Source: Parvibaculum sp. (lineage in GTDB: Bacteria; Pseudomonadota; Alphaproteobacteria; Parvibaculales; Parvibaculaceae). Taken from it: a stretch of 64,000 nt of DNA. The translations under genes and the position numbers were made by a program. Where the stretch lies: NCBI RefSeq assembly GCF_030694575.1, contig NZ_JAUYUS010000052.1:1-64000 (forward strand). Reading direction: 5' to 3'. The notes under the pieces were generated by a model. It was not told the origin of the DNA, made no database searches, and worked only from the letters and a program-made list of their open reading frames with translations. Below, piece by piece: positions 30,752 to 44,114 of the stretch (the stretch's first letter is position 1; every line of letters starts with the position of its first letter).

Positions 30752-31182
30752 GGCGTCTCCTCCATGTCGGCGCCGCGCAGGATCGTGTCGCCGCTCAGAT
30801 CCCGCCTGCCGCCCGCAAGTTGCCGGCCGACCCGGTCGATGAAGGCCTCGAAGCGGTCGCGGCCGACGGCGCGGGCCGCGTGATCGGGCTCGGGCAGCGG
30901 CGCGGTGACGGTCAGTTGATAGCGGACGAAGAGCCCCAGGCTCTCCATCACGATCGCGAGGTCGCGCTCGATGCGGTTCAGTTGCGCGCTCATCCGGTCG
31001 AGCCGGAGTTTGAAGAGATCGTCGAGCTCCTTCGCGCCGCGGCGCGCGAGATAGGCGCGGAGTGCATCGCTGACGATGGCGGATTTGGATGAGCCGGGCT
31101 TCGCGGCGAGTTTCTCGAGCTCTTCGCTGAGCGCATCGTCGAGATAGAGATGATGGCGGGGCTTCATCGCATGCACCTTCAA
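30748..31182 (-). CDS. CopG-like ribbon-helix-helix protein
   Basis: A 144-residue protein with a ribbon-helix-helix start (RHHLYLDDALSEELEKLA and SKSAIVSDALRAYL) and a helical remainder. In this family of elements a CopG-like gene always sits between traG and trbB; it may repress the trb operon. It overlaps traG and trbB by 4 bases each, so the run from traG to trbI is one operon. Confidence 0.85.
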   Translation of the reverse strand: MKVHAMKPRHHLYLDDALSEELEKLAAKPGSSKSAIVSDALRAYLARRGAKELDDLFKLRLDRMSAQLNRIERDLAIVMESLGLFVRYQLTVTAPLPEPDHAARAVGRDRFEAFIDRVGRQLAGGRRDLSGDTILRGADMEETP

Positions 31183-33242
31183 AATCCAGGGAGCAGTTCT
31201 TGCGAGGCGCGGTGACGGTCGCCGTCGCTCCCCGCATTGGCCGCATAGGCGCGCCTGATCGAGCTGCGCCCGCCGCGTTTTCCTCCATCCATTGCCCTAG
31301 GATCGGTGCCCGCATCGCCGTCATCGTCGAAAAGGCCGAGTGTCGCTTCGCGGTGCTCGCGCCGTTTCGCGACCTCCTTCGCGGGCCGGCCCGGATGGCG
31401 CTGCTGCTGGAGACCGCCTTCCTCTTCCGCCAGTCCGGCATCGGGATCGGGGACGCTTGCGGTGGCGAGCCGGTGATCGAGCCCGCGCACCTGGCCGCTC
31501 CAGTCGTCGGGACGCGGAGCGGGCCTGTCGCGATAGCCATTCTCGGCAAGGACCGGCGCCGGCTTCACCCGCTCGGTGAAGTTCTTGTCCTCGTAATAAC
31601 GGAGCTTCTTCGCTCGAATGGGCGCAAGACCCGAGACCAGCACAAGCTCGTCTGCCGAAGGCAATTGCATCACCTCGCCGGGCGTCAGGAGCGGCCGCGC
31701 CGTTTCCTGCCGCGAGACCATGACATGGGAGAGCCAGGGCGCCAGGCGGTGCCCGGCATAGTTGCGCTGGGCGCGCAGTTCAGTCGCGGTGCCGAGTGCG
31801 TCCGATATCCGCTTCGCGGTCCGCTCGTCATTGGAGGAGAAGGCGATCCGGACATGACAATTGTCGAGGATCGCATTGTTCTCGCCATAGGCCTTGGAGA
31901 TCTGATTGAGCGACTGGGCGATCAGATAGGCCCTGATCCCGTAGCCCGCCATGAAGGCGAGCGCCGTTTCGAAGAAGTCGAGCCGCCCGAGCGCCGGGAA
32001 CTCGTCCAGCATCATGAGCAGCCCGTAGCGCCGCCGCTTTGCCGGATCGCCTTCGAGCTTCTCGGTGAGGCGCCGCCCGATCTGGTTGAGCACGAGCCGG
32101 GCCAGCGGCTTCGTGCGCGAAATGTCGGCCGGCGGAATGACGAGATAGAGCGAGACCGGCCGCGCTGCATCAACGAGATCGGCGATCCGCCAGTCGCAGG
32201 CCGAGATCGTCGCCGCGACGATCGGGTCGCGGTAAAGCCCCAGAAACGACATGGCGGTCGAGAGCACGCCGGAGCGCTCATTGTCGGACTTGTTCAAGAC
32301 CTCGCGGGCGGCGGACGCCACGACGGGGTGAACCTCCGGATGCTCCGGTGTTCCCAGATGATTGGTCGCCATCATGGCACGCAGCGTGTGCTCGAAGGAG
32401 CGTCGCGGGTCCGACAGGAGCGTCGCGACGCGGGCAAGCGTCTTCTCTTCTTCCGCATAAAGGACATGCAGGATCGCACCGACCAGCAGCGCGTGGCTCG
32501 TCTTCTCCCAGTGATTGCGGCGTTCGAGCGCGCCTTCCGGATCGACCAGGATATCGGCGATGTTCTGGACGTCGCGAACCTCGTCCGGGCCTTTGCGCAC
32601 TTCGAGCAGCGGGTTGTAGCGGGCAGAGCGTGGATCGGTCGGGTTGAAGAGGAGGCAATGGGAAAAGCGGCTCCGCCAACCGGCGGTCAGCTGCCAGTTC
32701 TCGCCCTTGATGTCGTGAATGACGGCCGAGCCTGTCCAGGAAAGAAGCGTCGGCACGACGAGACCGACGCCCTTGCCGGAGCGCGTCGGCGCGAAGGCCA
32801 TGACATGCTCCGGTCCGTCATGACGGAGATACTGCTCGCCAAGCCGCCCCAGAAACACGCCGGCGGCGCGGAAGAGTCCTGCCCGCTCGATCTCGCCGCG
32901 CTTCGCCCAGCGCGACGAACCGTAAGTGGTGACGAGCTTGCCCTGCCGGGCGCGCCAGAGAGAGCCGGCAATGGCGACCGCGCATCCGGCGACGCCACTC
33001 GAAGCGGCGATCGCGCCTGCCCGCGTAAAGACGCCCGGCGCATAGGCCTCATAGGCATACCACCACTCGAAGAGCCGCCAGGGATAATAGACGGGCCATG
33101 AGAGGAGGATGAACCAGGGCGCGCCGAGACGTGCCTGGAAACCGAGCGCGAAGGCTGCCCATTGCGTCGCGGTCCAGACGCCGAGAATGACGATCGCGAA
33201 GACGATCAGCGCCTGACCGATCAGAAGTTTTGTCGGGGTCAT
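31179..33242 (-). CDS. traG: Conjugal transfer coupling protein TraG (VirD4-like)
   Basis: A 687-residue type IV coupling protein linking the relaxosome with the mating channel. Two N-terminal membrane segments precede the nucleotide-binding fold: Walker A FAPTRSGKGVGLV and Walker B LLMMLDEFPALG. The C-terminal tail is charged and poorly conserved. The start at 33242 is supported by GGAGAG; a start at 33293 would add 17 residues. It is the first gene of the traG-trb operon, with about 270 bases upstream for its promoter. Confidence 0.95.
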   Translation of the reverse strand: MTPTKLLIGQALIVFAIVILGVWTATQWAAFALGFQARLGAPWFILLSWPVYYPWRLFEWWYAYEAYAPGVFTRAGAIAASSGVAGCAVAIAGSLWRARQGKLVTTYGSSRWAKRGEIERAGLFRAAGVFLGRLGEQYLRHDGPEHVMAFAPTRSGKGVGLVVPTLLSWTGSAVIHDIKGENWQLTAGWRSRFSHCLLFNPTDPRSARYNPLLEVRKGPDEVRDVQNIADILVDPEGALERRNHWEKTSHALLVGAILHVLYAEEEKTLARVATLLSDPRRSFEHTLRAMMATNHLGTPEHPEVHPVVASAAREVLNKSDNERSGVLSTAMSFLGLYRDPIVAATISACDWRIADLVDAARPVSLYLVIPPADISRTKPLARLVLNQIGRRLTEKLEGDPAKRRRYGLLMMLDEFPALGRLDFFETALAFMAGYGIRAYLIAQSLNQISKAYGENNAILDNCHVRIAFSSNDERTAKRISDALGTATELRAQRNYAGHRLAPWLSHVMVSRQETARPLLTPGEVMQLPSADELVLVSGLAPIRAKKLRYYEDKNFTERVKPAPVLAENGYRDRPAPRPDDWSGQVRGLDHRLATASVPDPDAGLAEEEGGLQQQRHPGRPAKEVAKRREHREATLGLFDDDGDAGTDPRAMDGGKRGGRSSIRRAYAANAGSDGDRHRASQELLPGF

Positions 33243-33512
33243 CCGTCTCTCTCCATCGCGCCATAGCTCGCGAAAACGAGAGACAGGATTCAATCGGAAG
33301 AAGGATTCTGAAAATCGCCTTTATCTGCGCTCTCGCGCGACGACGAGCACTGACGGAAAAGAGAGCGTTGAAGAGAATGCATGAACGTGAGAACAAGGAC
33401 TCTGGAAACGCGGAATCGAGAGGTGTAGAATCCAGCAACGAGCGTCGATGCACGAGATCGTTTGCACCGCCCCGATGAAACAAGACCTCACCGCGACGGA
33501 TGGAGATCCGAT

Positions 33513-34061: not shown

Positions 34062-35360
34062 TCACTTTCGCTTCGCCGAAATTGGACCGGTCATGGATTC
34101 AATCCGATAGGGCAATCTCAGATTGACCGGGCGATCAGACGGAACCACGCGGAGCCGGTCGACGACCGAGATGTGAACGAGGCTGTCGGGTGCGATAAAG
34201 CGCGGTTCGCCTCGGGGGAGATAATAGCCCCACAAAGTATGCCGGTCGTGCCAGTCACGACGGCGCACATTTTTCGGCCACCATTCGAACGGCCACCACA
34301 TCTTGTTCAACGAGTGATGCAACCGGCCTTTGGGGTCGGGTGCAGTATAGCGCCGGGCATGTTTGCGCTCCTTTCCGAGGACGATGTGGTTGAGCATGGT
34401 GCGCCGAATGCGAAGCCCTTTGTCGGCGGCCTGCTCGAGCATCCATCGCAACGGATACTTGGACAGCGCGCTTTCTTCTTCCACAAAGCCGCCGCCAATA
34501 TCCGAATGACAGCCCGCAAACCAAACTTGCCGGCTGTCTTGCACCGGAATGGTCTTGCTTTGGGAATGACGGTTGGGTTTGAATTGCTGCGGTTCGATCC
34601 AGCGCTGAACACGGAACATGCGGCGGAACTCGTCAATTGCTATCGCCTGACGAAGCGTGGAAACCGCTGGATTCGTCGAAGTGAATGGTAGCTCCTCGAG
34701 CCGCAGCTTCGACCAAAACAGACGGCCTGGCACGATCACCGAGGCCACAGAATCCCAGAGCCCAAGAAAATGGATGGGCACGCATTGCGGCAGGGCGATT
34801 TCGTTGAACTCGCGAGCGACTGCATAGTCATCAACTGCACTGGCCTGTTTATAGGCCTTGAGTGCATAGCTTGCGAAATTCACCTGATGTTCGCGCAATA
34901 ACCCGATGAGGTAAATGACGCCTGCCACGACGCTCACGGTATATGCGCCCCGACTGAACCCGAACAAGAAAATCCGATCGCCATCACGATAGTGACGCGC
35001 GAGGAAGCAATAGGCATTCAAGACATCTCGATCGAGTCCATGCCCGGTCGCCATCTCAAAAGTCGACCTCAATTTCTGCTTCCACTTACCCCAGTTGTTG
35101 GGCATGGAAACCGTGCCAATGCCGGGCTGGTAGAAAACGATCTGCCGTTCACTCTTCTCGGCAATCCGATAGAGCTTCAATACGTTCGACAACTGCTTGC
35201 CAATCTCATTGCTGGTGCCGTCGCAACACACAACGAGGTTGCGGCCCAGCATTACGCCGCCTGGGGTGGTGTTCTTGCCCTTCTCGCTGCTGGGTCGGCC
35301 CAGCTGGCAGGCGCGTTCGATATGGTCATGGTTAGCCATAGGGCTCTCGTTCTTGGCCAT
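34062..35360 (-). CDS. DUF2235 alpha/beta-hydrolase-like protein, candidate CBASS effector
   Basis: A 432-residue protein with the DUF2235 hydrolase fold: NLVVCCDGTSNE at 41-52 and the nucleophile elbow GFSRG at 134-138 (S136). DUF2235 proteins are lipase/phospholipase-like and include secretion-system effectors of the Tle1 type. It is the last gene of the CBASS run, 75 bases after the DUF6602 gene, and on the same strand. A membrane-damaging effector is therefore plausible. GAGG precedes the start. It could alternatively be unrelated cargo. Confidence 0.75.
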   Translation of the reverse strand: MAKNESPMANHDHIERACQLGRPSSEKGKNTTPGGVMLGRNLVVCCDGTSNEIGKQLSNVLKLYRIAEKSERQIVFYQPGIGTVSMPNNWGKWKQKLRSTFEMATGHGLDRDVLNAYCFLARHYRDGDRIFLFGFSRGAYTVSVVAGVIYLIGLLREHQVNFASYALKAYKQASAVDDYAVAREFNEIALPQCVPIHFLGLWDSVASVIVPGRLFWSKLRLEELPFTSTNPAVSTLRQAIAIDEFRRMFRVQRWIEPQQFKPNRHSQSKTIPVQDSRQVWFAGCHSDIGGGFVEEESALSKYPLRWMLEQAADKGLRIRRTMLNHIVLGKERKHARRYTAPDPKGRLHHSLNKMWWPFEWWPKNVRRRDWHDRHTLWGYYLPRGEPRFIAPDSLVHISVVDRLRVVPSDRPVNLRLPYRIESMTGPISAKRK

Positions 35361-35434: not shown

Positions 35435-36160
35435 CTATTTAGTCAGCCACTTAGCGTACGCCTCAATATCGATCATTGGCACGGTACCGCTGAATTGCAG
35501 CTGTGAGATCAGCTTGAATAGGAATGCCGTGGCGGGCTTATTCTCGTCTACGAACGAATACGCCGACGTTGACTGATCGAAGAAAAAATGACCGTGCGCA
35601 GCAATGCACCCTATATCGAGCCGCCCGTCTTCCAGGTCAGCAATCAATGCTTTGTCGAGTGACAATCCCAATGCTGGGTTCCACTCGCTTTCGAAGGTGA
35701 GCAAACCACCTAAGATCGGAATTAGGGGCTTAGCCGGGTAGGTGCCCTTCGCATAAGGAATAGGCAGGCTTGTCCGGTGTAGACGACGAACGCTTGCGAC
35801 CTTCTCCTGAGCGTATGCGACTAGAGAAGCATCTGCCGTCTGCTTGGCCTCGAGAACGGCATAGACACTTTCGGCGGGGACGATTGTTTCATTCTCATAA
35901 GTGAAGATGAAGGGAGAATACTGGCGATCAAAGATCACCACATCGATCTGCTGGCTGAAGTTGCCAAGGCTATCCACCACATGCGCCTTGGCCGCTTGAT
36001 ATCGCTTAGGAAGATATGTCTCTAGCAGGCTGATCCAAACGTTCTCGCTGGCGTCGCCTTTCGTTCCAGGATGATTGAAGGATTTTCGTACCACCGCGAG
36101 ACGCTGCTGAATATCTTCATGCAGCGAGGAAAGGAGTTGGGATAGAGACCATTCCGCCAT
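35435..36160 (-). CDS. DUF6602 protein, putative nuclease-like CBASS partner
   Basis: A 241-residue protein resembling DUF6602. Visible acidic positions are D73 in SQQIDVVIFD and the EAK motif at 104-106 (AVLEAKQ), a possible PD-(D/E)xK restriction-fold site, with E40 preceding. It follows the CD-NTase gene by 31 bases. Proteins of this kind recur near nucleotidyltransferases, but I cannot say whether it is the effector, a regulator or a nuclease. Confidence 0.65.
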   Translation of the reverse strand: MAEWSLSQLLSSLHEDIQQRLAVVRKSFNHPGTKGDASENVWISLLETYLPKRYQAAKAHVVDSLGNFSQQIDVVIFDRQYSPFIFTYENETIVPAESVYAVLEAKQTADASLVAYAQEKVASVRRLHRTSLPIPYAKGTYPAKPLIPILGGLLTFESEWNPALGLSLDKALIADLEDGRLDIGCIAAHGHFFFDQSTSAYSFVDENKPATAFLFKLISQLQFSGTVPMIDIEAYAKWLTK

Positions 36161-36191: not shown

Positions 36192-37091
36192 TCAAGATAG
36201 CGGGAACTTCGGCCCAAAAAGATCTCGCCACGCCCGGAGCGCTTCGCCATTTCGACCGCAACGTGTATGAGCAATTGCAAGCGTGGCTTGGCGCTCTGCC
36301 GCGCGGAGAAGATCGCATGCCCGCGCTCTGCGCGCGGTATCCATCCCGTTGCTAATCGCCGGACCAAGACCTGCCGGATCAGGCCACTCATCAAGCATTC
36401 GATCTGCAAGCGTCGCAAAAAAACCCTGCACCTCACGGTCGAAGCTTCCACCCCACCCGCCATGCAGGCACTGAAGCGCCATGACCTCGAGAAGGAATGA
36501 GGGCTTTACCGGCTTCTCACCGTGCTTCGGATGGTTGTTCCAGTACTTCACCATCCGCACCAGCCCCTTCCACTCACTGGAATAAGCTTGGTGCGCTGCG
36601 GTCGCCTTTGCGGCGTGCGTTTGTGGATTTGTCTTTATCCATTTTTTGAGTTCATCATCGGGAATCTCGAAATCATCACCTACATCAAACGCCGGAACGA
36701 CATCTACGCTGATAACACGGTAGTCAGTGTTGTCGTCGGTGTCGGCCGTGACCCCAAAGTCGATGTTGATTGATCGATTTTGCTTCCTGGCGTTGTCGCC
36801 GTATTTTTCGACCAATGCATCATGGAAATCGGTCAAAACCGTTGATGGCGCCTTGGACCGATAGTGATCCTCGGAGGACTTCAGGACGAAGAAGATGTCG
36901 ACGTCCTTGAGAGGCTTCGTCTTGGTCCAACGTGCATATGAGCCTGTGAGAAAGCTCCGATCGATCTTGAACTTAGTATCGATGTAGTCTCGCACCTCCG
37001 TTTGGCGTGCGGATGCGTTTTTCTGCTCTTTGTCGTTCAGCTCAAGACGGCTTTTGAACTTTCTGAAGGCTTCGTCGACCGTGAGCATCAA
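36192..37091 (-). CDS. CD-NTase (CBASS cyclic-oligonucleotide synthase)
   Basis: A 299-residue cGAS/DncV-like nucleotidyltransferase. The active site is [11 protein letters not shown] (G50, S51) with DVDIFFVL (D63, D65), and the third aspartate is probably D130 in [11 protein letters not shown]. It would synthesise a cyclic di- or trinucleotide second messenger on phage infection. It overlaps the HORMA gene by 4 bases. The HORMA and TRIP13-like partners make it a type III-like CBASS. Clade (C or D) cannot be settled by eye. Confidence 0.9.
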
Positions 37092-37588
37092 GCTCTCCTC
37101 AGATATGATGTGCGAGCGCCGAGGCCACTGTGTTCAACTGTGGTGCCAAGGCTTTGACGGACCATTCCCTCTGTCGAACGTCCGCTGGTCCTACTCCATC
37201 CGATCACGTCAGGCCTACCGGGCTTCGTGTGCACAAGCATACGATAGCGAGCCTCGCTTGGTGCCAGACCAGCCTTTTTTATCGCATACTTGAGCTGCTC
37301 GGTGTCGGTCCAGAAGCTACCGTCTCCATCCGACGAGCCATAGGAGATATCAATGTCCCAGCGAAAAATCAGCGTGTTCGTCTTCGGGTCATAGATCTCA
37401 AGCTTCACGGTCTCAAGGTCGCCGGTGCTCAGCCAGGTCTGAATACCGCGCATGTTGGTCTCCCAATCGCCAACGAACTCCGATGGATTCAGCCCGCTAA
37501 GACGAATGATGTCTTTCAGGCTTTTCAGGATATTGTCCGCTACATATGTGACGGAGTATGTGTATGTGTTGACGGCGACGCTTGTCAT
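37088..37588 (-). CDS. cap7: Bacterial HORMA-domain protein (Cap7-like)
   Basis: A 166-residue protein whose N-terminus ([20 protein letters not shown]) and position identify a CBASS HORMA protein. In type III CBASS such proteins bind a closure peptide, activate the CD-NTase when closed, and are reopened by the TRIP13-like ATPase. It overlaps its neighbours by 4 bases on both sides. Identity rests on pattern and context more than on a single diagnostic motif. Confidence 0.8.
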
Positions 37589-38061
37589 GAGCCGAGGAAT
37601 CCTTTCGAGTCAAAAACAAGTGTCTGGGATTTCGTTGTTGCCGACTCGTTCGCACCGGGGACAGTTGCGTCGAGATCGCGAGCCGTAATGCGAGTGCTGT
37701 GCTGCTTCAGGGCGCTCTGAACCCAGACGAGATCATCAGCCAGGCAGGGAAGCGAAATCCTCCAGTCCCCTTTCAAAGGTTCAAAGCCGAGTGGATCCTC
37801 ATTGGCATCAGAGCCCTCGATCGCATCCTCGTCATAAAGGCAATAGATGCGGGTGCGGGGGCCATCGCAGGTCACGGTAATCGCGGCATCCTTCGGCGCT
37901 TGATCCGCGATCACGCTGGCGGCGGTGCCAACGACAGCAAGAAGCTCAGTACGAGCATCGCCGGATTTTCCCTGCGTCAGAAGGTCGACGATCGCTATCC
38001 AGGTTTGTGCGGCATCACGCCCGGGAGTGCTCCTGAAAGTGCGGCTTGCAACGGTGCTCAT
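37585..38061 (-). CDS. Second HORMA-like or accessory CBASS protein (Cap8-like)
   Basis: A 158-residue protein between the TRIP13-like and HORMA genes, overlapping each by 4 bases. The start is the ATG at 38061; the longer frame is a shadow inside the ATPase gene. Type III CBASS operons often encode two HORMA-type or HORMA-partner proteins, and this is the most likely role. The sequence itself shows no motif I can name. Confidence 0.65.
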
Positions 38062-38981
38062 GACGCTCCGCCTCCCATGATACGTCCCGCCTTGGCGGCA
38101 CGAGCGGCTGCAAGCAGGTCGTCGATCGTCACACGTTCCGGATCCATGGCCGTCTTCTGATTGCTCGCCAGTGCATTGGCCACCATCTTGCGGATGGCTC
38201 GCCCGTCGAGACCAACGCATTCGGTTGCGCAGCGATCAAAGCCCGCAACACTCGGCAATCTTGCGATAGCTGGGTAGACCTTACCGAGGCCCGTTAGACA
38301 ATCCCTCAGAATGCGTGCGCACGCTTCGCGGTCCGGCAAGGGCACATGGACGACAAGGTCGCAGCGCGACGTGAACGCTGCGTCGACAGCTTGAGGGAAA
38401 TTGCTAGTAGCGAGAAACAGCAGGTTCGGATGCTTCTCGGCAAGGGCGTCAAGCTGGACGAGGACCGCATCGGTTGCCCGATGAATGTCGATCGGGTTGG
38501 CTTCGAGACTCATCTTTGAGCGGTCAGCTGCCAGTGTTTCGACTTCGTCGAGAAGAACGATAGTCGGTCCTCTGACGGCAGACTCTGCAATTGACTGCGA
38601 AAACAACTCCGATACGGCCCGTTGAGTTTTACCCATCGCTGAGCTGGTCAATGCATGTGGCTCGACCTCGAGCAGGTGGAACCCGCTTCCCTTGAACGAC
38701 TCGGCAGTACGATGCGCCAATCCGCGAGCGAGAGAGGTTTTCCCCGTCCCTGGCGGCCCGACTAGAAGGATCACGCCATGCAAGGGGATCACACTTCGAT
38801 CGACCTTGCCGCGCATCGTGAAATTCAGCATCGCCTGCGAAAGGAGCTGCGCTTTCAGGCGTTCTTCAATGATTATCGATTCCCAAAGAGCGCCAAGCTT
38901 GGGATCCGGAAGCCGCCGCATCCGCTGGATACCCTTCGGTCGATTGAAATCCTCATCTTGCACCGCAGCCAACTTCTGCAT
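38058..38981 (-). CDS. cap6: TRIP13/Pch2-like AAA+ ATPase (Cap6-like)
   Basis: A 307-residue AAA+ ATPase. Walker A is GPPGTGKT at 75-82, Walker B IVLLDEVE at 141-148, and a sensor region LATSNFPQAVD follows with an arginine-finger-like FTSRCD. In type III CBASS it opens HORMA proteins and thereby switches the synthase off, limiting false activation. The ATG at 38981 has AAGGGA upstream; the frame from 39071 adds 30 residues and is less likely. It is the first gene of four 4-base-overlapping genes. Confidence 0.9.
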   Translation of the reverse strand: MQKLAAVQDEDFNRPKGIQRMRRLPDPKLGALWESIIIEERLKAQLLSQAMLNFTMRGKVDRSVIPLHGVILLVGPPGTGKTSLARGLAHRTAESFKGSGFHLLEVEPHALTSSAMGKTQRAVSELFSQSIAESAVRGPTIVLLDEVETLAADRSKMSLEANPIDIHRATDAVLVQLDALAEKHPNLLFLATSNFPQAVDAAFTSRCDLVVHVPLPDREACARILRDCLTGLGKVYPAIARLPSVAGFDRCATECVGLDGRAIRKMVANALASNQKTAMDPERVTIDDLLAAARAAKAGRIMGGGAS

Positions 38982-39067: not shown

Positions 39068-39289
39068 TCAACCCTTCGGAGGGAAGGGATCGGTGCCGTA
39101 GGAATTTGCATCCCTGATCCGGCCGTCCGGTCGATGGATGATGACCTCACCCCGCTCGCGGATTGCGGTGCTGCGCGCCGCTTCCGTGGCCTGGGCCTGA
39201 GTTTCGTGGGTCGACCCCGCGCGCGACGTTCCCTCACGGCGCGTCGCCCAACCGGAATCGTGTGGAACAACATGGATGCGTTTGGACAC
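39068..39289 (-). CDS. DUF2188 small protein
   Basis: A 73-residue protein of the DUF2188 family (KRIHVVPHDSGWATRREG; ending in a GEVIIHRPDGRI block). The function is unknown. It is the gene nearest the CBASS promoter side, on the same strand as the TRIP13-like gene and 86 bases upstream of it, so it is probably transcribed with the operon. Overlapping small frames on the same strand are shadows. Confidence 0.7.
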   Translation of the reverse strand: MSKRIHVVPHDSGWATRREGTSRAGSTHETQAQATEAARSTAIRERGEVIIHRPDGRIRDANSYGTDPFPPKG

Positions 39290-39370
39290 TCTACTGAATC
39301 TCCTCTACTTGCCGCTGATCAAGCCCTGCGCTTACCGGCTGCTTACTGATTCCATAATGTGGAAATGTTG

Positions 39371-39447
39371 TCAATAAGCACATTGCAATGTGCTTATTGA
39401 GCACATGTTTGTGAGATTGACATCGAGACTCACGTGTAGCAAACATG
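39371..39447. promoter_or_regulatory. Operator region between CBASS and CapH/CapP-like genes
   Basis: A perfect 30-base palindrome occupies 39371-39400, each half being TCAATAAGCACATTG or its complement. A second interrupted inverted repeat follows: CATGTTTG (39404-39411) with CAAACATG (39440-39447), and GTGAG (39411-39415) with CTCAC (39429-39433). There is no T run, so a terminator is unlikely. The site lies between the divergent operons, directly before the repressor gene, as expected for its operator. Confidence 0.75.
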
Positions 39448-39451
39448 AGGC

Positions 39452-39805
39452 ATGTCGGACGGAGCTATTTACAAGGCGTTCGGGCGGGCCGTCGCGACGC
39501 GGCGGAAAGAGCTCGGATTTACTCAAGCCGATCTGGCTGGCCGGGTGGGTATGTCGCGCGCGTCTGTCGCCAATATCGAGAGTGGCCGGCAGAACGTGCT
39601 GCTGCATCACGTCTACAATCTCGCCTCGGCGCTTCAATTCTCAAAAGTCTCAGATCTGCTGCCGACCCAACTGAAACCTGCGACGCAGGAGGACTTAGAC
39701 ATGATCCTATCGGACGAAACTCTAACCGCGCGTGGCAAAGCCCAGGTCACCGACCTAATCGCGAGCGCGTTGGCCCAACGCAGTTCTACAAAGGCGGCGT
39801 CGTGA
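39452..39805 (+). CDS. capH: XRE-family HTH repressor (CapH-like)
   Basis: A 117-residue protein with a Cro/CI helix-turn-helix at about residues 10-65, including FTQADLAGRVGMSRASVANI. It overlaps the downstream metallopeptidase gene (GTGA), and is divergent from the CBASS operon. That is the published arrangement of CapH, a CBASS repressor cleaved by CapP after DNA damage. The ribosome binding site is close to the start and weak; the transcript may be leaderless. Confidence 0.78.
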   Translation: MSDGAIYKAFGRAVATRRKELGFTQADLAGRVGMSRASVANIESGRQNVLLHHVYNLASALQFSKVSDLLPTQLKPATQEDLDMILSDETLTARGKAQVTDLIASALAQRSSTKAAS

Positions 39806-40323
39806 AAGCGAACCCAGAGAGGGCCAGAGAAGCCGCCCGCGCGGTCTTGCAAGACTTCGGGGTAAAAGGTGTGCCTGTTCCGGTCGAGCGCATTATCAAG
39901 ACAAGAAACATTGTTCTTCAATACGCTCCGCTTGAGGAAGACCTCTCCGGAATGGCCTATATTAAAGATGGAGTTGGGATCATCGGGGTCAACGCCCTGC
40001 ATCATCCCAACCGGCAACGATTCTCGGCGGCACATGAGTTGGCTCATCATGTGCTGCATGCGCCAGAGATTCAGAAATCCGTTCATATCGACAAGGGATT
40101 TCGCGTCTTGCTGCGTGACGACGTCTCTTCGCAGGGCATTGATCCGTTGGAAATTGAAGCCAACGCTTTCGCATCTGAACTGTTGATGCCGCAGGAATTC
40201 TTGATGGACGCGCTGGACGCAAGCGGTCTGGATATCGAGGATGATTCGGGCATTGAAGCGTTAGCCCGCAAATTTAGGGTAAGCGCCTCTGCGATGCGAT
40301 ATCGCTTGGCGGGCCGCTTCTAG
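39802..40323 (+). CDS. capP: ImmA/IrrE-type zinc metallopeptidase (CapP-like)
   Basis: A 173-residue protease. The zinc motif is HELAH at residues 78-82, and the distant glutamate lies in LEIEANAFASELLMP, typical of ImmA/IrrE. The start is a GTG overlapping the capH-like stop codon by 4 bases. From family and context it should cleave the adjacent repressor in response to DNA damage and so induce CBASS. The chain contains no cysteine, so a cysteine-switch type of self-inhibition would not apply. Confidence 0.82.
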   Translation: MKANPERAREAARAVLQDFGVKGVPVPVERIIKTRNIVLQYAPLEEDLSGMAYIKDGVGIIGVNALHHPNRQRFSAAHELAHHVLHAPEIQKSVHIDKGFRVLLRDDVSSQGIDPLEIEANAFASELLMPQEFLMDALDASGLDIEDDSGIEALARKFRVSASAMRYRLAGRF

Positions 40324-40338
40324 GCATAGGTGGGCCCG

Positions 40339-41745
40339 GTGAGTTTCGTCTTCTTCGATACAGAGACAACCGGCCTGAGGCACGGCTTCGATCAGATCGT
40401 TCATTTTGCTGCCATTCGGACCGACGCCGATCTCAATGAGATCGACCGATTTGAAGCGCATTCTCGACTTCTCCCACACGTGGTGCCTCACCCCTTTGCC
40501 CTGTACACAAACGGTCTTTCTATCGGGAGGCTTACCGATGATGGGCTTCCGTCACATTATGTCATGGTCCAAACCATCCGACGAAAGCTGTTGTCATGGT
40601 CTCCATCGATCTTCGTTGGATACAACTCGATTCGTTTTGACGAAGAAATGTTGAGACAAGCGTTCTTTCAGACACTCCATCCGGCCTACCTCACAAGCAA
40701 TCATGGCAATTGCCGTGCTGATGCCCTGGGGCTGATGACAGCTGCAGCGGCGCTTTCTCCAAGCTGCTTGCTGGTTCCGTTTGGAGCAACGGGCCGCCCG
40801 ACCTTTCGACTGGAGCAATTGGCGTCAGCGAACGGTATCGAACATACCAGAGCTCATGACGCGATGGCCGATGTCCTAGCCACGCTTGGACTATGTCGCT
40901 GCGTGTACGAGCGCTCATCAGAGCTCTGGCAGCGTTTCGTGCGATTTTCGAAGAAAGCGACAGTCGCTGATTTCGTTGACAGCGAGGATGCGTTCATTCT
41001 CACAGAATTTTTTAGCAATGAAGCTTATCATGCACCGGTCGTCTGCTTGGGCAGAGATCCTGAACAACCCAACGGTCGTCTATGCTTGAGGCTAGATGGC
41101 GACGTTGGTCGTTTCTACACGATGTCAGATGAGGATTTGCGGGTGGAGTTGGCTCGGAAGCCTAGCCCCATACGACGGTTTCGAATTAATGCCGCTCCGA
41201 CTCTGACAGCGCTCTACGACGCGCGGGATCAGATGCTGAATGGTATCGATTTAGATGAGGTGGAAACTCGAGCTCGTCGAGTGAAAGACGATCCAACGTT
41301 CTGCGCCCATCTTATTTCGGCCTACGCCTCAATACGCGGACCACATGCGCCGTCCCGACATGTCGAAGAGCAAATTTATGACAGGTTTCCAGGACCGGAC
41401 GACGAAGCTCGCATGGAAAGATTCCACAAGGTCGGCTGGCGAGAAGTGTTGTCCATCGTCCAGAGCTTTGAGGACGAGCGCCTCCGATGCTTCGGGCTCC
41501 GTCTTGTCTATTTCGAACATCGTTCTGTCTTGCCGGAAGAGATACGCCTCCGTGTGGAGCGCGAACTGACAGACCGACTTGTTGAGGAAGAAAGCGGTGG
41601 GTTGACACTTCGGCGGGCACTCCAAGAGACAGACGCTCTTCTGGGTAGCGACTACACCGACACGAACGGAATTCTTGCTGACTACAGAGCATACCTCGTC
41701 GATCGAATTACACGCGTGTCCAATTTTCGGCACAGCATTTCGTGA
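40339..41745 (+). CDS. Exonuclease I-like DEDDh exonuclease
   Basis: A 468-residue protein starting at a GTG (40339; an alternative GTG is at 40330) with AGGTGGG ahead. The N-terminal half has DEDD exonuclease motifs: FFDTETTGL (D7, E9), GYNSIRFDEEMLRQ and HDAMADVLAT. This resembles E. coli exonuclease I (SbcB), which digests single-stranded DNA 3' to 5'. The C-terminal half is helical and unassigned. It lies 15 bases after the metallopeptidase gene, probably in its operon. A link with CapP regulation by single-stranded DNA is possible but not proven. Confidence 0.85.
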   Translation: MSFVFFDTETTGLRHGFDQIVHFAAIRTDADLNEIDRFEAHSRLLPHVVPHPFALYTNGLSIGRLTDDGLPSHYVMVQTIRRKLLSWSPSIFVGYNSIRFDEEMLRQAFFQTLHPAYLTSNHGNCRADALGLMTAAAALSPSCLLVPFGATGRPTFRLEQLASANGIEHTRAHDAMADVLATLGLCRCVYERSSELWQRFVRFSKKATVADFVDSEDAFILTEFFSNEAYHAPVVCLGRDPEQPNGRLCLRLDGDVGRFYTMSDEDLRVELARKPSPIRRFRINAAPTLTALYDARDQMLNGIDLDEVETRARRVKDDPTFCAHLISAYASIRGPHAPSRHVEEQIYDRFPGPDDEARMERFHKVGWREVLSIVQSFEDERLRCFGLRLVYFEHRSVLPEEIRLRVERELTDRLVEEESGGLTLRRALQETDALLGSDYTDTNGILADYRAYLVDRITRVSNFRHSIS

Positions 41746-41948: not shown

Positions 41949-43934
41949 CTATGAAACCCCCGGCCCTCTCCGCCTCCCGATCGTCCACGAGACCCTCCCT
42001 TCCCGGACGACCCCTGCGACCTGCCTCCCGAGATGCCGCTCCAGCACCGGCCGCCAGGGTACGAGCGTGAACTCGCGCGATCTTTCGATCACCGCGAAAC
42101 GCCCGCTGGCGAGATCGACATGCCGGCGATAGGTGCCAGTCGCCTTTTGCCCCAATTCTGCCTCGGCATAGGGTAGACCGAGCTCGCCCGAGAGCTGTTC
42201 CGCTACACGCAGCAGCTCGCGCCGGCGCAGGATGCCGAGCATGTTGGCGCGATAGACGATCCGGTCCTGTTCCTCGCGTGCCAGTTCCTGCCCGGCCAGC
42301 CATCGCCGACGCATCGCGAGCGCGTCGCGCACCTCCCCGCCGAAGCCCGCCTCGCGCAAGGGCTCCGGCTTTTCCGCCACAAGCTCACGGTCAAGCCAGG
42401 TCGCGCCATTGGCGGTCACCTGCCGCTCGAGCGGCCAGGCGGAAAGCGTCTCGACAATGACCGGGCTCGATCTTGCCTGACCGCGCTCGAAGGATGCGGC
42501 GCGTTCCAAGTGATCCGGCGCGATGACCCAGCTTCCGTCCGGCTCTCGCTCGACCAGCCCGGCAATCCTCCGCATCGCTTCCAGCCGCCGGATATGGGTT
42601 TCGGCGAAGGCGCGTGACGCGGTTGGGTCGTGGCGGAGATGCGCCTCGATGTCGTAGCGCCCGTTATTCGCCGCCGCGACCTCCGCAATCGTTCGGTCGA
42701 CGGTTCTCTGTCCCACCGGCTTCGGCCTGATCGCGACGATGGCGCCGTCCGGCAGCGCGTCCACCGTCTCCGCCCCACCGATATCGACGTAATGCACACG
42801 ACCGTCGATCCCGTCGACGATCAAATAGTGACGGTCGTTGAGTTCATTCGACAGCCCTCTGGTGACAAGACGCCCGACGACGCGTCGCTCCTGCCCGTTC
42901 GCGGTTTCATGAACCGCATAGTCGGAGGGGACCCGCGCGAGCCCCTTCTCCGTCATTTCGCGGTGAAGCGTCTTGATGATGTCGCCGCGCTCCCCCATGC
43001 GGCGGAGCGCCGGTTCCAGGTCCCCGGCAAGCTTCCACGTTCCGGTGGCGATCTCCTCCGCCAGTCCCAACCGTTTCAGTTTCTGCAATCGCCCGGCCCG
43101 CAGGCTTTGCCGGAAGGCGTCGCCGACGGTCGCCCCAGACCGAACACAGCCTTCGCCGTCCGCGTCCTTCAACAGGCCGCGGTCGAGACCCGTGAACCGT
43201 TCCTGTTCGACCTCCCGCGCGAGGTTCGCCTCGATCTCGAGATCGCTGCGGGGACCGAGATCGAGGGTGACGATTTCGGCGGCGCGCTCGCGCATGCCCG
43301 TCGAAAGATAATCCCGCGCGATGACCAGGTCCTGTCCGCGCTCGTCCTTGCCCCGGAGCATGATGTGGGTATGGGGATGGCCGGTGTTGTAATGATCGAC
43401 CGCGACCCAATCGAGACGCGTTCCCAGATCCTCCTCCATGCGGGCCATGAAGCGCCGCGTGAAACCCTTCAGTTCCTCATATTGCGCGGCGTCCTCGGCC
43501 GAAACGATAAAGCGGAACTGGTGCCGGTCGCCGTCGCAGCGTTTCAGAAACGCCTTGCCGTCCGCCCGGTCGTGTTCGGCATCGTAAAGCTCGCCCGGCT
43601 GCCCTTCGCGCGTCACGCCGTCGCGCTGGATATAGCGGAGATGGAGACGGGCCGCCTTCAGGCCCTGCCCCTTCAGCTTCACGATGCGGGATTTGACGAC
43701 CACGCGCCGCGCGCGGAAGGCGGCATGGGTTCCGCGCGACGCGAGCACGCGACCGATGCCGGCGCCGCGGCCGATGCGATTGCCGTGAAAGCCCGAGCCC
43801 GGCGACGCTCCACCGAAGCGGCGTCCGCCCGCCAGCGCCGCCGATTTCAGCACGCGTTGCTGGTAGCGCCGCTCGGCCTTTCCGGCGCGCGCCCCGATCC
43901 TGCCGAGACGTGGCTCGAAGCCGTCGTCCTGCAT
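41949..43934 (-). CDS. Relaxase/mobilisation protein with DUF3363
   Basis: A 661-residue relaxase like RlxS of ICEMlSym. After a basic N-terminus, the HUH motif appears as DHYNTGHPHTHIML (histidine metal triad), with RYIQRDGV further upstream. The DUF3363 domain forms the C-terminal half. It nicks oriT and pilots the strand through the channel. The ATG at 43934 has GAGAGGAG ahead; a longer frame from 44072 is rejected. The intact C-terminus ends in GRRRGPGVS. Confidence 0.9.
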   Translation of the reverse strand: MQDDGFEPRLGRIGARAGKAERRYQQRVLKSAALAGGRRFGGASPGSGFHGNRIGRGAGIGRVLASRGTHAAFRARRVVVKSRIVKLKGQGLKAARLHLRYIQRDGVTREGQPGELYDAEHDRADGKAFLKRCDGDRHQFRFIVSAEDAAQYEELKGFTRRFMARMEEDLGTRLDWVAVDHYNTGHPHTHIMLRGKDERGQDLVIARDYLSTGMRERAAEIVTLDLGPRSDLEIEANLAREVEQERFTGLDRGLLKDADGEGCVRSGATVGDAFRQSLRAGRLQKLKRLGLAEEIATGTWKLAGDLEPALRRMGERGDIIKTLHREMTEKGLARVPSDYAVHETANGQERRVVGRLVTRGLSNELNDRHYLIVDGIDGRVHYVDIGGAETVDALPDGAIVAIRPKPVGQRTVDRTIAEVAAANNGRYDIEAHLRHDPTASRAFAETHIRRLEAMRRIAGLVEREPDGSWVIAPDHLERAASFERGQARSSPVIVETLSAWPLERQVTANGATWLDRELVAEKPEPLREAGFGGEVRDALAMRRRWLAGQELAREEQDRIVYRANMLGILRRRELLRVAEQLSGELGLPYAEAELGQKATGTYRRHVDLASGRFAVIERSREFTLVPWRPVLERHLGRQVAGVVREGRVSWTIGRRRGPGVS

Positions 43935-43993
43935 CGTCTCCTCTCCGCGATTGTGACCCATCTTCAAGATGATCGGCTTTCGCCGCGTAACAA

Positions 43994-44114
43994 GACGGCG
44001 CCATGAAGACCGAAGAGGCACAGGGACTTGGCGCGGCCATGGCGCCACGCCTTCGGCGCATGGCGCCGTCAAAAGAGATGTGCAGACAGGAACATAAGCC
44101 GCTCATGGCGCCGT
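43994..44114. repeat. Repeats upstream of the relaxase gene, candidate oriT
   Basis: GACGGCGCCATG (43994-44005) is the exact inverse of CATGGCGCCGTC (44059-44070). A further CATGGCGCCGT lies at 44104-44114 and a core CCATGGCGCCA at 44037-44047. The array occupies the 256-base gap between the relaxase and lytic transglycosylase genes, which is the usual place for an origin of transfer. Confidence 0.55.

Follow-up and report, generated by a model that had tools for sequence, protein, structure and literature searches.

A CapH/CapP-like control module with an exonuclease I-like third gene beside a type III CBASS operon in Parvibaculum

The window is a stretch of 64,000 nt from Parvibaculum sp. 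(assembly GCF_030694575.1, contig NZ_JAUYUS010000052.1, positions 1-64,000, forward strand). It features a plus-strand control operon to the right of a perfect palindrome, which consists of three genes encoding a repressor, a protease and an exonuclease. The repressor (39452..39805, +) is a CapH-like Cro/C1 (XRE) protein of 117 aa that matches Pfam HTH_3 (4.4e-11) and PADLOC capH (4e-12) and has a conserved HTH. Its gene overlaps by 4 bp the gene for a CapP-like ImmA/IrrE (M78) metalloprotease of 173 aa (39802..40323, +; Pfam Peptidase_M78, PADLOC capP), and the gene for an ExoI/SbcB-like DEDDh 3'-5' exonuclease of 471 aa (40330..41745, +; PADLOC RTasSbcB 1.2e-98, ExoI fold) starts 6 bp after the protease. 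The divergent minus-strand operon lies to the left of the palindrome and runs from a DUF2188 gene through a type III CBASS set to a DUF2235 hydrolase gene. The DUF2188 protein (39068..39289, -) was identified with Pfam and PADLOC (PDC-S16) and is encoded by the first divergent gene. The type III CBASS set includes a TRIP13 AAA+ ATPase (38058..38981, -; PADLOC TRIP13 2.6e-149), the start codon of which was chosen in this analysis, HORMA protein 1 (37585..38220, -; PADLOC HORMA 1.2e-73), which matches from residue 54 and has an uncertain start, HORMA protein 2 (37088..37588, -; Pfam bacHORMA_2 2.2e-86), a CD-NTase, which is the CBASS oligonucleotide cyclase (36192..37091, -; NCBIfam NF041117 6.9e-96, above its cut-off), and a NucC endonuclease effector (35435..36160, -; PADLOC NucC 8.1e-112). 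The run of CBASS genes ends with a DUF2235 (Tle1-like) alpha/beta hydrolase (34062..35360, -; Pfam PF09994 4.7e-78). Pfam, PADLOC and NCBIfam show that the type III CBASS is complete, with CD-NTase, HORMA, TRIP13 and effector all present. The first-pass annotation of this DNA had described an XRE repressor overlapping an ImmA/IrrE protease and a type III-like CBASS operon divergent from them, both of which are borne out by these identifications; it had overlooked the exonuclease and the DUF2188 gene, and had not noticed that the protease lacks a GAF-like domain. The island is flanked by conjugation genes, for a T4SS coupling protein and a DUF3363 relaxase (31179-33293 and 41949-44072, -).

The palindrome (39371..39400) equals its own reverse complement over 30 bp, as had been claimed, and it is the only perfect palindrome of at least 16 bases in the 64-kb window, the eleven next longest having 14. 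The chance expectation for a 30-base palindrome is ~0.0001 per 64 kb by base composition and ~3e-7 in 160 bp at local composition. The palindrome is the left part of an operator array (39376..39413) in which four half-sites alternate in orientation, AAGCACA (39376-39382), TGTGCTT (39389-39395), GAGCACA (39399-39405) and TGTTTGTG (39406-39413), and these half-sites are enriched in relatives. The repeat previously noted at 39404-39447 is also present: read directly from the sequence, it is an 8-bp inverted repeat with arms CATGTTTG (39404-39411) and CAAACATG (39440-39447), which match the half-site conserved in relatives. The repeat, short taken alone, was not listed by the repeat-finding scan. 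Two candidate -35 boxes face each other across the array. The minus-strand TTGACA (39369..39374, -) overlaps the palindrome, is conserved as TGTCAA and would serve the divergent CBASS promoter, and the plus-strand TTGACA (39417..39422, +) is conserved, lies exactly 35 bp before the ATG and would serve the repressor promoter. CAAACA (39440..39445, +), 17 bp after TTGACA, occupies the -10 position and is possibly a further operator half-site that overlaps a weak -10. The 35-bp spacing between TTGACA and ATG makes a leaderless repressor mRNA likely. A scan of the operator region of the window for a consensus sigma-70 promoter and a terminator found neither, so it is conservation alone that points to these promoters.

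Conservation was judged across 86 loci, which comprise the window, the best 80 of 116 protease relatives in GTDB genomes, and five annotated plasmid loci taken out of 14 plasmid records with a match. Relatives share an upstream layout of TGTCAA, then AAGCACA- or ACAAACA-type half-sites in alternating orientation, then TTGACA, which mostly starts exactly 35 bp before the repressor ATG. An exact TTGACA is found at -44 to -24 in 75/86 loci (~0.8% in letter shuffles), an exact TGTCAA at -110 to -70 in 56/86, and the two together in 52/86; letter shuffles give 0.8% and 0. Of 64 non-redundant upstream regions, all drawn from the 75 that carry an exact TTGACA, 39 contain ACAAACA/TGTTTGT against an expected 0.8, and 30 contain AAGCACA/TGTGCTT against an expected 0.5. 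The same 64 regions feature conserved symmetry centres 20-24 bp left of TTGACA (z 3.7-5.0), which in the window are TGTGCTT-att-GAGCACA and its neighbours, with the palindrome supplying the two left half-sites. The earlier proposal that the palindrome is an operator thus stands in part. Its half-sites are conserved and it is probably part of the operator; the palindrome as a conserved operator in itself was rejected, its centre lying 31.5 bp left of TTGACA, outside the conserved centres at -20 to -24, and the perfect 30-mer is shared, among the loci compared, only by the window and L009. The latter locus, from a Hoeflea MAG, is in the closest genome found, with a protease 99% identical to that of the window. 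Two other loci, L061 and L059, have perfect palindromes of their own at the corresponding position upstream of the repressor, 44 and 38 bp in length; these are longer than that of the window and differ from it outside the ACAAACA core.

The repressor gene is present in 86/86 loci, directly upstream of the protease, and the two overlap by 4 bp in 62/86. The protease features a zinc site with an HEXXH motif (H78-E79-H82) plus E117. It contains no cysteine, as had been noticed earlier, and the same is true of 74/86 members. In the loop after HEXXH a Cys is found in 23/28 aligned rows of GAF-type CapP vs 0/86 module proteases, and the residue beside that loop position is His in 83/86 of the latter. 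The loop Cys is what we take to be the zinc switch of GAF-type CapP; that His is a replacement zinc ligand in the GAF-less proteases is a guess. The structural model of the protease (pLDDT 87.8) matches Thauera CapP (7t5t; Z 18.7, 155 aligned residues, 2.7 A), aligning only to residues 6-181 of the 291-residue protein, and it matches the PprI-ssDNA complex 8sln over 22-175 (Z 13.2). The C-terminal part of both Thauera CapP and PprI is missing from the protease of the window. Additionally, the PADLOC capP profile is matched only at 4-151 of 242 positions, and module proteases are 167-187 aa long across the 86 loci. Profile match, model alignment and length agree that the protease lacks the GAF-like domain. 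In the available text of PMC10904395, this domain of PprI is needed for ssDNA binding and stimulation, and GAF-truncated PprI neither binds ssDNA nor is stimulated by it. Because the protease lacks the domain that PprI needs for its ssDNA response, ssDNA as a direct signal to it is putative. In a quick tree of proteases, with 28 chosen module proteases out of 86, the exonuclease-linked proteases form one clade (97) outside the main group of GAF-type CapP, which is itself separate at 90.

The third protein is predicted, from its fold and active site, to be an active ExoI-type 3'-5' ssDNA exonuclease. Its model (pLDDT 94.6) has the E. coli ExoI fold over 444 residues with the C-terminal domain included (1fxx, Z 35.9; 4rg8, Z 36.0), and the ExoI-ssDNA complexes 4js4 and 4js5 match with Z 35.4; the C-terminal part that grips ssDNA is present in the model. 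TREX1 (7tqq) matches the catalytic domain with Z 20.2 over 186 residues. The protein scores 213.2 bits against the exodeoxyribonuclease I equivalog NF008746 and misses its cut-off of 260 bits. The DEDDh active site consists of D10, E12, D104, H176 and D181 and is intact in 77/80 exonucleases, the exceptions being L020 and L059, which are incomplete frames, and the inactive-looking L076. The last of these, a Sphingomonas module, encodes a full-length ExoI homologue (L076:7513-8904) whose residues G, A, D, G, D align with D, E, D, H, D of the active site, beside an intact repressor and protease. It suggests a non-catalytic role in at least one member. No reverse transcriptase was found with Pfam and PADLOC among the ten proteins scanned at 34.0-41.7 kb, and the genome of the window contains no other such exonuclease.

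The exonuclease lies directly behind the protease in 81/86 loci (80 by open reading frame, plus L043, where the first codons are at the contig edge) and in 58/62 after thinning to <90% protease identity. It is absent from L022, L023, L042 and L087, and L086 shows none in its remaining 262 bp. At the usual exonuclease position L042 encodes a predicted AAA-ATPase with a PD-(D/E)XK nuclease domain (L042:7536-9191). The exonuclease gene is interrupted in L005, L020, L050 and L059, truncated in L072, and cut by the contig end in L049. Pairwise distances of repressor, protease and exonuclease correlate at 0.89-0.91 in 74 loci (74/80 rows, those with exonucleases >400 aa and without L009), which indicates that the three proteins travel together; L009 was also excluded from the protease and exonuclease trees and from the non-redundant counts, and kept among the 86. 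The exonuclease is found behind the protease in 0/27 GAF-type CapP loci, and 24 of the 27 have at least 440 bp of downstream DNA; these are the best-scoring CapP from 398 Pseudomonadota genomes, the window's own included, and their 28 rows are 27 places, L097 and L157 coinciding in the genome of the window. The count is likewise 0/36 behind generic short GAF-less M78 proteases from the same search, two of which (L146, L154) have <300 bp downstream of the protease. Functional replacement of the GAF-like domain by the exonuclease, argued from this complementarity alone, was judged weak; each protease class is largely one lineage.

ExoI relatives were found in 29/385 alphaproteobacterial genomes (30 matches), and 3/30 matches, the window's own included, lie behind CapH-CapP, so such an exonuclease is uncommon in the class and only partly linked to the module. 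An exonuclease clade exclusive to the module was rejected on the latter count. In a tree built without L158, L160 and rows scoring <=200, the module-linked exonucleases cluster apart from 24 other alphaproteobacterial ExoI, with 2 changes on the tree vs a shuffled mean of 21.7. No common partner was found beside five other ExoI genes among 10 neighbour proteins scanned, 8 of which are without a Pfam family. In viruses, 9 protease relatives were found at <=40% identity, none with an exonuclease.

In 70/86 loci the divergent strand next to the module carries an immune operon that could be assigned to a class, the operons being compared by phmmer with representatives that Pfam and PADLOC had named. 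E1/ubiquitin-like operons without CD-NTase account for 32, CBASS type III for 13 (12 firm, L064 being counted on a weak AAA match), type II for 7, TIR/ThsB for 7, CBASS with SAVED for 6, CBASS with SLATT for 3 and other CBASS for 2. The 16 unassigned loci include L079, where ubiquitin-like genes are downstream on the same strand. Mapping the immune classes onto the protease tree takes 14 changes, compared with a minimum of 6 and a mean of 34.6 in shuffles, and proteases 97% identical (L027 vs L029 and L030) serve different CBASS types. These class changes and near-identical proteases argue that the control module is a re-used cassette. The cassette can also help to locate immune operons, 16/86 neighbours being without an assigned class, and candidate operons lie beside the module in L046-L048, L061, L069 and L062; they encode an asparagine-synthase-like protein (L046), a strawberry-notch-type helicase (L061), a cytosine methylase (L069) and an IetA-like AAA protein (L062). 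DUF2188 proteins are encoded in 26/86 loci across the type III, type II, SAVED and TIR classes, and this spread suggests that DUF2188 could be a component of the control module and not of any single effector system. YegP-like proteins are reported at a similar position in the available part of the CapK/CapS paper. The DUF2235 hydrolase follows NucC in the window, L009, L014, L019 and L020; it is likewise encoded at the end of SLATT-type CBASS operons in L004, L038 and L040 and is possibly a second effector.

A CapH/CapP-like controller of CBASS is well supported at this locus by gene order, family matches, fold and the conserved operator and promoter layout, and on these comparative grounds it is very likely that the repressor and the protease control CBASS. 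CapH/CapP was reportedly first described by Lau et al. in 2022. The module of the window resembles it in having a Cro/C1 repressor that overlaps an M78 protease of the same fold, divergent from CBASS or ubiquitin-like operons. It differs in that it has no GAF-like domain and no loop Cys, belongs to a separate protease clade and features an extra exonuclease gene. The match to the published CapH-CapP switch proposed in the first-pass annotation therefore holds for gene order, families and fold; the missing GAF-like domain and the clade of its own set the module apart. PprI/DdrO controls repair genes. In this system of Deinococcus (IrrE), a metalloprotease with the same peptidase and HTH-like domains cuts the repressor after DNA damage; however, PprI carries the GAF-like domain needed for the ssDNA response and the protease of the window does not. 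The available text of PMC13373217 describes control of CBASS and ubiquitin-like operons by CapH/CapP and activation of CapP by ssDNA. It also covers CapK/CapS and CapW/BrxR, which are likewise ssDNA- or damage-responsive controllers before many immune operons but are unrelated to the controller of the window.

In the proposed mechanism, the CapH-like repressor would bind the inverted half-site array between the two facing promoters and silence its own operon as well as the CBASS operon, as the anatomy and conservation of the region suggest. DNA damage or phage replication would turn on the ImmA/IrrE protease, which would cut the repressor so that both operons rise; for this step CapH/CapP, PprI/DdrO and ImmA/ImmR are the precedents. 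The exonuclease would remove the ssDNA signal and so set the threshold in healthy cells and, produced by the same derepressed operon, would reset the switch through negative feedback. Removal of the ssDNA signal as the main role of the exonuclease is given slightly under an even chance. Two observations favour it: the active site is retained, and the exonuclease has repeatedly disappeared from loci where the protease is intact. That the exonuclease can be missing, broken or inactive next to a maintained repressor and protease fits a modulator better than an indispensable component. A related case is given in the available part of PMC12483538, where, in uninfected cells, ExoI holds down the immune DNA signal of the DRT9 system, a toxic ssDNA product; in that case ExoI comes from a host gene, and an immune reverse transcriptase synthesizes the DNA. 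With Exonuclease I (SbcB) the protein of the window shares the complete fold and the DEDDh active site, but it is encoded in an immune-control operon and clusters apart from other alphaproteobacterial ExoI.

The exonuclease could instead be the sensor that replaces the GAF-like domain, binding ssDNA 3' ends or making short products and activating the GAF-less protease by contact or via those products, which is unlikely but deserves the most weight among the alternatives. The missing GAF-like domain and L076, which retains a full-length, catalytically broken exonuclease, favour sensing, as do the pairing of GAF-less protease and exonuclease in 81/86 loci vs 0/27 GAF-type loci and, in the available text of PMC10904395, GAF-truncated PprI, which neither responds to ssDNA nor binds it. 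However, all members of the exonuclease clade belong to one lineage, so a single event may explain the complementarity, the 36 generic GAF-less proteases are likewise without an exonuclease, and the gene is absent in four loci and broken or truncated in five with the protease intact, which a required sensor should forbid. Less probable still is an exonuclease that acts outside the switch as a defence effector, degrading phage or conjugative ssDNA after induction with the immune operon. This role would fit the active site conserved in 77/80, the shared family with the PADLOC profile of RT-associated exonucleases and the expected induction together with the module, but the exonuclease tracks the regulator and not any effector class, stays constant while effectors change, and its distances follow those of repressor and protease. 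It is very improbable that the pair is a generic ImmR/ImmA-type regulator of the surrounding conjugative element that stands beside CBASS by chance: the island does lie between the T4SS coupling protein and DUF3363 relaxase genes, and integrative elements are controlled by ImmA/ImmR in the available text of PMC10233336, but 70/86 loci have an assignable immune operon on the divergent strand and the facing -35 boxes point to the immune operon. The least probable alternative is that the palindrome, instead of being an operator, forms an RNA or other structure such as a terminator or attachment site. It would fit the 30-bp perfection not being conserved, but against it stand the negative terminator scan at the palindrome, its construction from half-sites conserved in relatives between two -35 boxes, and the unrelated perfect palindromes of 38 and 44 bp at the same place in L059 and L061.

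TREX1 restrains cGAS in animals. The module resembles this pair in placing a DEDDh 3' exonuclease beside a cGAS-like pathway, and it differs in that the exonuclease of the window would act on a transcriptional switch; the parallel is one of arrangement and catalytic fold, from which common function or descent does not follow. Signal removal by the exonuclease would, tentatively and with the chances leaning against it, make the module a bacterial counterpart of TREX1-cGAS, in which a dedicated DEDDh 3' exonuclease guards CBASS and other lethal immune operons by keeping ssDNA below the alarm level. If this TREX1-like reading is true, phages that block or saturate the exonuclease, or shield 3' ends from it, would trigger immunity, and loss of the exonuclease would lead to bacterial auto-immunity. 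The question addressed is how the suicidal immune systems of bacteria stay silent yet ready. The recurrence of the trio beside many immune systems suggests a built-in guard against a too-easy DNA alarm, and with a controller equipped with an ssDNA-degrading enzyme of its own, conserved next to several unrelated immune operons, the alarm threshold and its shut-off become directly testable. Additionally, ssDNA sensing and proteolysis are set apart by the GAF-less protease, and the module can therefore reveal where sensing lies. The open-access literature searched yielded no description of an exonuclease within a CapH/CapP operon, which is not proof of novelty, and the words exonuclease and SbcB are absent from PMC13373217. 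What is new here is the separate protease lineage, the lack of a GAF-like domain and the extra exonuclease; the logic is the same as that of CapH/CapP.

The genome of the window offers a natural comparison, with both protease types within one cell. It encodes two more CapP-type proteases, both GAF-type, at L156 (G000:C9) and L157 (G000:C39), and a DUF6791/ThiF gene is found near one and BilC- and BilD-like genes near the other. Plasmid L004 carries a similar island, with relaxase/coupling-protein genes on one side and T4SS genes on the other, which is a possible cargo site. Conjugation delivers ssDNA and could therefore itself be a signal.
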